Below are positions 1-909 of a DNA stretch of 55,639 nt, in pieces. A program made the position numbers and the translations under genes. Positions within the stretch are counted from its first letter, which is position 1; every line of letters begins with the position of its first letter. The stretch comes from an uncultured Bacteroidia bacterium (GTDB lineage Bacteria; Bacteroidota; Bacteroidia; Bacteroidales; UBA932). The notes beneath the pieces were generated by a model. That model worked only from the letters and a program-made list of their open reading frames with translations, made no database searches and was not told the DNA's origin. The DNA lies in the NCBI GenBank assembly GCA_902792815.1, contig CADBAY010000014.1, positions 1 to 55,639 of the forward strand. Direction: 5' to 3'.

Positions 1-1
1 G

Positions 2-343
2 AAAGCATATCAGTATTCCAAGCGTTGCAATGTGCTCCGTGTGGCCTACGAAGCCTGTCGCTGGGCAAAACGCGGTGCCACCATCAACAGCATCTCGCCA
101 GGCATCATCATCACTCCATTGGCTAATGATGAGCTACACGGCCCTCGTGCCAAGGGCTATCTTGATATGATAGCCGGTATGCCAGCCCGGCGTGCAGGAA
201 CGCCTGATGAGGTAGGCGATTTGGCAGAGTTCCTGATGTCCTCTCGCGGTCGTTTCATCAGCGGTGCAGATTTTCTTATCGATGGTGGCTGCACTGCCAG
301 CTACTGGTATGGTGATTTGCAATACTTAAAGGCAACTCACTAA
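2..343 (+). CDS. SDR family oxidoreductase, 3' part (5' end outside window)
   Basis: This is the C-terminal 113 residues of a short-chain dehydrogenase/reductase, an NAD(P)-dependent oxidoreductase. The frame is open from base 2. The catalytic YxxxK motif is visible at the left edge (Y at 8-10, K at 20-22). After it come NSISPG, the usual INxxxPG segment, then PARRAGTPDEVG and FISGADFLIDGG, the standard SDR C-terminal signature where NAD-binding proteins end in a small glycine turn. The Rossmann glycine motif lies outside the window. The substrate cannot be read. The gene ends about 80 bases before the terminator of the opposing tRNA-Leu gene. Confidence 0.9.
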   Translation, partial: KAYQYSKRCNVLRVAYEACRWAKRGATINSISPGIIITPLANDELHGPRAKGYLDMIAGMPARRAGTPDEVGDLAEFLMSSRGRFISGADFLIDGGCTASYWYGDLQYLKATH

Positions 344-420
344 ATTCCTGTTTATCGGTCTCTTTGGTTCTTTGGCCTGAAAGAAAAAGGTGACCAAAAG
401 TGACCAAATTTGGGGGATAC

Positions 421-472
421 AAAAAACAAGACCTTGTAAAATGTTTGAAAATCAACAACTTACAAAGTCTTG
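421..472 (-). terminator. Rho-independent terminator of the tRNA-Leu gene
   Basis: Two arms at 427-439 and 460-472 are complementary over 13 bases with one G-U pair. Read on the minus strand they form a hairpin followed by a run of six T (421-426). It lies four bases past the tRNA-Leu discriminator base. Confidence 0.8.
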
Positions 473-475
473 TTG

Positions 476-865
476 TGCCTCGGATGGGACTCGAACCCAT
501 ACGGCCGTTTCGGGCCAAGGGATTTTCTTACCACTATGGCTTTCGCCACCATTAACGTTTGTGGTCCGGACTATTCCTTCACCATTGGGACTATCCCATT
601 AGGTGTGTCGTGTCTAGTCTCTGCACCTTCCTCCTGTGCGGAGGCTTGGCTCAAGATTACCATCAGCGCTACCTGTTAAGGCTTCCTTGAATTTACGACA
701 TTCTACATCTCTCTTTTCAGAGAGTGCACTCAAGTGCGCTCTTCCTCTATAGTTACTTGTAAGAGCATGACAATTTGGACACAGAAGCTGCAAATATCGT
801 CTCTTACAATAACTATTTCAAAGAACTTTCTAAGTCCCTCGTGTCTACCATTCCACCACCAAGGC
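476..865 (-). tRNA. tRNA-Leu(UAA), interrupted by a group I intron
   Basis: The two exons are 832-865 (34 nt) and 476-526 (51 nt), which join to an 85-nt class II tRNA. The acceptor stem is GCCTTGG with CCGAGGC (one T-G pair) and discriminator A. The D-arm is GTG/CAC and the anticodon stem AGGGA/TCCCT with loop CTTAAAA, giving anticodon TAA. The long variable arm GGCC-CGAAAC-GGCC and the T-arm ATGGG-TTCGAGT-CCCAT are both intact. CCA is not encoded. The exons are split between anticodon bases U34 and A35, the site used by the cyanobacterial and plastid tRNA-Leu(UAA) intron. A TATCTTTG -7 box lies at 902-909 and a terminator at 421-472, so the gene looks expressed. Confidence 0.93.
527..831 (-). 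ncRNA. Group I intron in the tRNA-Leu(UAA) anticodon loop
   Basis: A 305-nt insertion without an ORF separates the tRNA exons. The conserved core reads in order on the minus strand: a P-like element AATCTTGAGCCAAGCC (658-643), a small P6-type hairpin CCTCC/GGAGG, the R element GGTGCAGAGACTAGAC (627-612), and an S element GAATAGTCC ending at 568. P7 forms from GACTA (619-615) and TAGTC (573-569). The 5' exon ends in GGGACTT; AAGTTC just inside the intron can pair with GGACTT as the guide (P1). The intron's last base is G. The P and R elements closely match the cyanobacterial/plastid trnL intron as I remember it, which suggests the IC3 class. It is probably self-splicing with guanosine. Confidence 0.92.
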
Positions 866-901: not shown

Positions 902-909
902 CAAAGATA
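902..909 (-). promoter_or_regulatory. -7 promoter box for tRNA-Leu
   Basis: The minus strand reads TATCTTTG, matching the Bacteroidota TAnnTTTG -7 element, about 37 bases before the tRNA 5' end. I see no TTTG -33 element at the expected distance. Confidence 0.6.

Follow-up and report, generated by a model that had tools for sequence, protein, structure and literature searches.

The intron of the tRNA-Leu(UAA) gene (trnL) is the textbook ancient group I intron. It was inherited with plastids and is held to be immobile. Another group I intron is carried by the tRNA-Ile of Azoarcus. For bacteria in general, the available passages of PMC4033280 list tRNA group I introns in cyanobacteria and in alpha- and beta-proteobacteria. 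A cyanobacterial tRNA-fMet intron has an ORF of 150 codons (excerpts of PMC5733544), and the reference list of PMC3984707 includes a title on the endonuclease I-Ssp6803I. The archaeal group I introns in the accessible text of PMC6125680 are all in rRNA.

Endonuclease genes also lie beside phage tRNA genes, as do T4 SegB and others (passages of PMC6409571 and PMC13096335). Phage group I introns with HNH genes are described for Bastillevirinae (PMC11878797) and for jumbo gut phages (PMC12363816), in the portions available of both papers. The portion on jumbo gut phages reports many group I introns, and the word 'tRNA' is absent from it. According to excerpts of a 2014 review (PMC3984707), every phage intron known by then was in a protein gene, and some intron ORFs overlap the core. 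The accessible parts of PMC11835236, PMC6125680, PMC5733544, PMC7162821 and PMC11878797 contain nothing on Bacteroidota trnL introns or phage tRNA introns. Likewise, among the open-licence PMC papers listed by full-text searches, none was recognisable as a report of Bacteroidota trnL introns or of group I introns in phage tRNA genes.

Here we describe a trnL intron from an uncultured Bacteroidales bacterium (UBA932 family; contig CADBAY010000014.1). The window is the whole stretch of DNA that was analysed, 55,639 nucleotides. Compared with the cyanobacterial and plastid trnL intron (PMC4476775, in part), it shares the gene, the U34/A35 site and a related core with the AAGGTGYAGAGACT element. 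However, the core identity of the Bacteroidales introns to its cyanobacterial form is below their identity to proteobacterial or phage introns. Besides, an endonuclease gene or its remains occupy loop L1 here, and the intron is patchy within one genus. With the other bacterial tRNA group I introns (PMC4033280, available passages) it has in common a small core in the anticodon loop, and by core identity its closest bacterial counterparts outside Bacteroidales are the alphaproteobacterial trnL introns. The cyanobacterial tRNA-fMet intron and I-Ssp6803I (excerpts of PMC5733544 and PMC3984707) resemble it in having an intron-borne endonuclease aimed at the anticodon region, although the tRNA differs. 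T4 SegB is also encoded near phage tRNA genes, but outside any intron, and is of the GIY-YIG kind, being listed beside GIY-YIG enzymes (passages of PMC13096335). Finally, the phage introns with HNH genes in the portions seen of PMC11878797 and PMC12363816 are in protein genes, whereas here the host is a tRNA and the ORF runs through the core.

The split tRNA-Leu(UAA) gene

On the minus strand of the window, tRNA-Leu(UAA) is interrupted between U34 and A35 by a group I intron of 305 nt. Exon 1 (832..865) has the 3' end ...GACUU (U34). The intron (527..831) ends with G, and exon 2 (476..526) begins with AAAAUCCC (A35). The Rfam group I model RF00028 matches positions 746-546 over model positions 1-253, the full model, with 46.4 bits (E 9.4e-11). 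This is just under the Rfam gathering score of 50, so a default Rfam scan has no match at this gene. ARAGORN without its intron option calls no Leu tRNA at the locus. When the exons were joined in a script, the product was called tRNA-Leu(taa). Both exons are intact and paired.

Upstream of the tRNA, positions 902..909 (minus strand) hold TATCTTTG, a putative promoter element that resembles the Bacteroidota -7 consensus. An inverted repeat followed by a T run comes directly after the tRNA (421..474, minus strand). It is a likely intrinsic terminator, as predicted from the sequence.

The genome assembly (2.37 Mb, 48 contigs, 97.44% complete) has a single RF00028 match. It has 41 matches to RF00005 above cut-off, and among the Leu tRNAs ARAGORN names CAA, CAG and GAG. 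A contiguous tRNA-Leu(UAA) was sought, and none appeared among the 41 matches. The sole other GACTTAAAATC in this genome falls outside any tRNA. The split gene is the only Leu(UAA) source found in this 97.44% complete assembly; therefore splicing would be needed if the gene is to work.

Two other tRNAs, tRNA-Leu(UAG) and tRNA-Asp, are also absent from the 41 above-cut-off matches. They are either missing from the assembly or also interrupted. In addition, the split gene lies a few hundred bases from a contig end in the window (1-865) and in five relatives (L012, L020, L028, L030 and L004). Perhaps strain mixtures with and without the intron, or tRNA-integrated elements, break the assembly there.

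Fold and covariation of the ribozyme

The letters of the window contain P1 with its U.G pair, P2, P3, P7 and the P9 hairpin, all on the minus strand. The internal guide sequence is at 726..734, where GAGU (731-728) pairs with the exon letters ACUU (835-832) to form P1, with U.G at the splice site. The P2 hairpin is at 709..724. The 5' strand of P3 (695..700) pairs with its 3' strand (611-606). P7 is formed by the R element (615..619) and by the S element, UAGUC (569..573). The P9 hairpin, with a GAAA loop, is at 537..548. P2, P7 and P9 were placed from these letters together with the structure counted on relatives. The core may resemble those of the Azoarcus and cyanobacterial introns (putative IC3 subgroup).

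The structure was drawn by hand on one relative and consists of P1, P2, P3, P4, P6, P6a, P7, P8, P9 and a P9 extension, 46 pairs in total. It was counted on 22 relatives without a homing endonuclease gene (HEG), leaving out the window intron and the HEG-bearing introns. Over the 46 pairs, 99.1% of the cells were paired, and 14 pairs were changed on both sides, two of them in P3. No shuffle out of 500 equalled the real alignment in paired cells, in double changes or in covariation score, and 63 of 500 did so in the number of further pair types. With the partners shifted by 1-3 columns, the pairing fell to 34-43%. P7 gives no covariation because it is invariant in the 22 relatives. The U.G at the 5' splice site was present in 22/22, and the window intron has the same letters and the terminal G. 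The fold energy of the 391-nt gene has a z value of -4.56. The covariation in the relatives thus supports a group I fold.

The original prediction, made from the letters of the window, had named a 305-nt group I intron in tRNA-Leu(UAA), inserted at the U34/A35 site of the cyanobacterial and plastid intron, with the P, R and S core elements and the P7 pairing. The RF00028 match, the covariation and the joined exons agree with the intron, the exon calls with the site, and the window letters together with the structure of the relatives with the core. The covariance model that it had proposed as a check does match in full, below the gathering score. It had also called the intron ORF-less. This is right in that no intact ORF is present, and holds only because an endonuclease gene in L1 has decayed, of which 53 residues are left.

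Remains of an HNH endonuclease gene in loop L1

In the set analysed, the introns without HEG measure 211-243 nt. The window intron is long because its enlarged loop L1 (735..831, minus strand) contains the remains of a decayed HNH homing endonuclease gene, as the alignment with intact relatives indicates. I-Ssp6803I belongs to another family than this HNH endonuclease. A leader piece, GUUCUUUGAAAUA, remains at 826-814. The C-terminal part of the gene is retained in frame at 641..799 (minus strand) and overlaps the ribozyme core. It covers query residues 131-183, and these 53 residues are 89% identical to an intact relative, inside an open frame at 817-614. The N-terminal two thirds of the endonuclease are missing, and the paired histidines of the HNH motif align upstream of the retained piece. 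With a remnant only and no full endonuclease gene, the window intron would be a decayed descendant and not a mobile member.

Of 44 loci examined for exon ends, 39 yielded an intron; five named loci were at an edge or gave no exon. In 8 of the 39 introns (705-731 nt), loop L1, which extends from the 5' exon to the guide sequence, contains an open HNH ORF. One of the proteins (L075) matches Pfam HNH (1.7e-6) and PHROGs phrog_10822 (5.4e-46). Other pieces of the HNH gene are retained in L026, L110, L122 and L004, according to the alignment. From these sequences, the introns appear to form a series from an intact HNH gene, through a trace, to none.

We compared the substitutions among 12 distinct HEG copies (66 pairs) outside the core. 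The pS value was 0.81 and pN was 0.22, so the endonuclease protein is under purifying selection in the relatives. Synonymous sites were saturated in 62 of the 66 pairs, and the four usable pairs gave dN/dS values of 0.06-0.18.

A protein search of 299 genomes of the family found 44 that match the HNH protein. In more than half of these, the match is confined to a stretch of 30-40 residues whose coding sequence is the ribozyme core. Eleven genomes match at nearly full length, with 68-77% identity. Some arrangements differ from the common one. In G293 (L281, 1020-2120), the trnL intron has no HEG, and a second copy lies 3' of the tRNA. This copy is composed of a piece of the 5' exon, the intron leader and a long HNH ORF, and looks like a recombination by-product. 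In G246 (L022, about 1180-1470), a degenerate HEG lies between runs of N just upstream of a HEG-less trnL gene, which could reflect two alleles joined during scaffolding. In G254 the HEG is at a contig end.

Distribution in the family and beyond

RF00028 matches 39 of the 299 family genomes, in 5 of 25 genera, and 19 of the 299 exceed the cut-off. All 30 loci that were read from the 39 genomes are tRNA-Leu(UAA) with the same U34/A35 site (30/30). Another 67 of the 299 genomes, which do not overlap with the 39, have a contiguous anticodon loop. The other 193 genomes have neither state, in part because the pattern was strict and many bins are incomplete. Within the genus of the window (62 genomes with its own), 20 have an RF00028 match, 33 a contiguous loop and nine neither. 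Among these nine are G254, with its HEG at a contig end, and G107, G177 and G288, with a different intron.

Group I matches occur in 30 of 395 genomes sampled from the phylum, in various tRNAs where ARAGORN gave names. A motif scan of named genomes found at least 119 loci; 110 were kept, and 71 of these resemble tRNA-Leu(UAA). Among the matches listed, the trnL(UAA)-like ones belong to Pseudomonadota (46), Cyanobacteriota (12), Bacteroidota (8), Acidobacteriota (3), Chloroflexota (1) and Ca. Altimarinota (1). Such introns are thus found in at least six bacterial phyla, so the present case is more than a peculiarity of this contig. Since the ambiguous boundary leads ARAGORN to give some trnL(UAA) introns a wrong name (Ser, Phe and others), the counts per host tRNA are approximate. 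The named introns within the clade of the window (L059, L066, L075, L110, L112, L122 and L145) all come from records titled Bacteroidales (7/7).

The scans also gave group I motifs within genes that ARAGORN names tRNA-Asn or tRNA-Arg, in two records titled Pacearchaeota (L034, L042) and two of Omnitrophota (L063, L080). In a bin titled Tatlockia (L146), the trnL intron falls inside the cyanobacterial clade, by recent transfer or because the contig was misbinned.

A second intron type was observed at the same tRNA-Leu(UAA) site (L290, 1395-2228; L291, 1042-1405; L292, minus strand; and the phage loci L310 and L319). It has P1- and P7-like pairings by eye, and RF00028 has no match to it. A related HNH gene is in its L1 or free-standing 3' of the tRNA (L291). 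In G288, a relative of the endonuclease is free-standing 3' of a second intron type. Judging from these arrangements, one endonuclease family appears to serve two intron types at one site.

Relatives in phage tRNA genes

When IMG/VR was searched with the endonuclease, 32 loci were obtained, of which 22 are distinct. By raw count, 19 of the 22 are inside a tRNA-Leu gene or less than 400 nt from one. Five of the 19 are inside a tRNA-Leu(UAA) intron and 14 are beside a tRNA-Leu gene. The large terminase was present in 8 of 11 viral records tested.

The motif scan of viral contigs, which were taken as viral and may not all be phages, gave at least 120 loci. Of the 119 kept, ARAGORN places 50 in tRNA-Leu(UAA) and 34 in no tRNA. 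Among the viral matches listed, another 14 of the 119 are in a gene that it names tRNA-Tyr(ata), a name that may be wrong (for example L336, L346, L350, L354 and L362). These introns group as a family of their own in the intron tree.

Nucleotide searches of named phage genomes returned 12 and 59 records, with at most 50% query coverage. Where a feature was given, the matched phage records were mostly annotated protein genes. By ARAGORN, the deposited phage record LR756511 (595 kb) has a tRNA-Leu(taa) with a 700-nt intron and an HNH ORF, and the deposited record OU509535 (347 kb) has a tRNA-Met(cat) with a 228-nt intron. In LR756511 (L449, 2368-3154), the HNH ORF lies outside L1, just before P7, with its end at the R element. 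Perhaps this is an independent endonuclease insertion into a related tRNA-Leu(UAA) intron.

With the cores cut before L8, the mean identity of the Bacteroidales introns was 73% to seven HEG-bearing phage introns. It was 62% to acidobacterial, 61% to pseudomonadotal, 61% to other viral and 57% to cyanobacterial trnL introns. This cut was chosen after a comparison with L8 had given the phage introns no lead (other viral 0.659, HEG-bearing phage 0.649, Acidobacteriota 0.644, Pseudomonadota 0.640, cyanobacteria 0.585). The lead is lost with L8 because L8 is coding in most phage introns. For the window core cut before L8, the best phage intron has 75.2% and the best alphaproteobacterial one (L098) 73.7%.

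In a tree of trnL rows only, with up to nine long rows left out, 37 Bacteroidales and five phage rows are on one branch (support 96/97). Two of the seven phage rows (L297 and L300 by name) are outside it, and three phage rows are near-copies. As far as these alignments indicate, the best-supported kin outside Bacteroidales would be the introns in phage tRNA-Leu(UAA) genes.

The read-through ORF of the long phage form

In four phage loci (L297, L298, L301 and L302), one ORF of 277-287 residues runs from the HNH part in L1 through the core into L8, so catalyst and endonuclease would share bases. In all four, which are distinct phage introns, the ORF terminates on the UAG within the P7 strand UAGUCC. 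RF00028 matches the L301 intron with E 9.7e-10. The L8 of the long form encodes a Cys-rich and helix-turn-helix-like stretch, with weak Pfam matches below the cut-offs. A free-standing phage relative (L312) has both ends, and most of the core-coded stretch is missing from it.

The AlphaFold model, which rests on a six-sequence alignment, has a pLDDT below 50 for the core-coded residues 148-197 and block means of 69-91 for residues 201-277. The HNH parts 55-85 and 124-131 are also low, and the mean is 63.4. Among the Bacteroidales HEG introns reported, four of nine end on the same P7 UAG despite their short L8, and five of nine stop in the P6 region. The endings on the P7 UAG suggest that the bacterial copies may come from the long form.

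Gain, loss and descent of the intron

Intron-bearing and intron-free sites were compared in related hosts. L005, with a 705-nt intron, and the intron-free L152 are 90% identical over 1018 nt to the junction and 100% over the 52 nt beyond it, in hosts separated by 0.0145 RpoB changes per site. The empty-site pattern recurs in L009 and L153, at 78% and 84%. RpoB could be retrieved from 21 of 30 genomes with the intron and from 29 of 30 without it. On the tree of these 50 genomes, the intron state switches 11 times or more, and at least nine of these switches are forced by starred branches. Clustering of the state on the host tree exceeds chance (1-2 of 500 shuffles as low), and in G195 and G084 host and intron agree (96.4% and 99.1%), so there was some vertical inheritance. 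An intron already present in the tRNA-Leu(UAA) of the Bacteroidales ancestor, or earlier, with many later losses and with phages acquiring their copies from bacteria, would fit these two observations. It would fit as well the single Bacteroidales intron clade at one site, and the change counts cannot separate losses from gains. Nevertheless, we consider this history unlikely. Intron identity was uncorrelated with RpoB identity in 19 genomes (171 pairs, rho -0.14, Mantel p 0.87, 2000 permutations), and the closest host to the window among them (G294), with 97.3% in RpoB, has an intron core only 84.7% identical. Moreover, endonuclease genes under selection need ongoing mobility, and a HEG-bearing intron and an empty site occur in hosts as near to each other as those of L005 and L152.

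A direct descent by transfer from the cyanobacterial or plastid trnL intron has in its favor the same gene and the same site, and is very unlikely in our judgment. The window core has at most 64% identity to 14 cyanobacterial trnL cores, compared with up to 76% to 39 alphaproteobacterial ones, and the cyanobacterial mean to the Bacteroidales introns (57%) is below that of the phage introns (73%, over a shorter stretch). When Bacteroidales and cyanobacteria were held together as a clade, the trees were 38 log-likelihood units worse (AU p 0.14; 92 of the 134 rows of the thinned set) and, with phage rows, 51 units worse (AU p 0.07). These p values do not reject the grouping, although the best trees of both analyses, which cover cyanobacterial rather than plastid introns, do not group the two. 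The intron alignment had dropped 15 of 178 loci, and the thinned tree left out 15 more and cut the family from 30 to 16. Two trees draw both groups near each other: the thinned one places Bacteroidales beside an Omnitrophota/Pacearchaeota cluster and cyanobacteria, with weak support, and in another tree with phages the fork around Bacteroidales and phages (support 85) also includes cyanobacterial introns. Conversely, the intron tree without phages has the Bacteroidales introns among alphaproteobacterial ones. The deep placement of the Bacteroidales introns thus looks unstable in these trees. Least probable of all, to the point of being highly improbable, is an error of assembly or binning, or a dead tRNA pseudogene beside a working Leu(UAA) gene absent from the assembly. 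The 48 contigs, the 97.44% completeness, the lack of tRNA-Leu(UAG) and tRNA-Asp and the position less than 900 nt from the contig end would permit it. Against it, both exons are intact and paired, the 39 family genomes with an RF00028 match have no contiguous loop, and the same intron is in named records from other projects.

Discussion

The intron is probably an endonuclease-decayed descendant of a mobile trnL intron common to phage tRNA genes and bacterial chromosomes. The tRNA-Leu(UAA) would be transcribed with the intron, which would remove itself by two transesterifications started by GTP. P1 would fix the 5' site through its U.G pair, P7 would bind the guanosine, and the terminal G of the intron would fix the 3' site. 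The intron may represent a late stage of a homing cycle. An ancestral HNH endonuclease encoded in L1 would have cut intron-free tRNA-Leu(UAA) genes, and the intron would have been copied in by repair. After fixation, the endonuclease gene would have decayed. In the window, a deletion would have removed the start and most of the HNH gene, leaving the short leader and the C-terminal piece. Phage tRNA arrays, which hold the same intron and endonuclease family, would be the likeliest vehicles between hosts. We infer the splicing, the DNA cutting, the homing and the direction from phage to bacterium.

The original prediction had also claimed a close likeness to the cyanobacterial and plastid trnL intron. 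This was not sustained, since the cyanobacterial cores reach at most 64% and the alphaproteobacterial and phage ones up to 76% and 75% (the last over the shorter stretch). Its proposal of a transfer into a distant phylum was partly right. A transfer between distant groups is likely from the sequence comparisons, with phages and other bacteria as the partners to which the evidence points. The intron tree that it had suggested, run with cyanobacterial and other bacterial introns, does give a Bacteroidales clade, and leaves the cyanobacterial grouping at the AU values above. The Bacteroidales host is supported by the titles of the nearest named intron relatives, and the patchy distribution by the 39 of 299 genomes with RF00028 matches and by the intron-free sister species.

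A wider reading joins these parts, and we give it even chances. Phage tRNA arrays would ferry the intron and its HNH endonuclease, aimed at tRNA-Leu, into bacterial chromosomes, where the intron would become fixed and shed the gene. In the long form, the core would be coding, as a disordered linker between the HNH part and a DNA-binding-like domain in L8, with the stop at the P7 UAG. The cyanobacterial and plastid trnL intron may be a fixed branch of the family.

The intron itself belongs to a known kind. What is new is a Bacteroidales clade with the HNH gene in all stages of decay, its relatives in phage tRNA genes, and the read-through ORF. At the textbook trnL site, introns appear and disappear within a single genus. 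They carry endonuclease genes that are under selection, and relatives of theirs occupy tRNA genes of phages. The split gene explains why standard callers seem to miss tRNA-Leu(UAA) in such genomes. The long phage form offers an RNA whose catalytic core may double as a protein-coding linker. Finally, the finding gives a testable route by which tRNA introns may travel.
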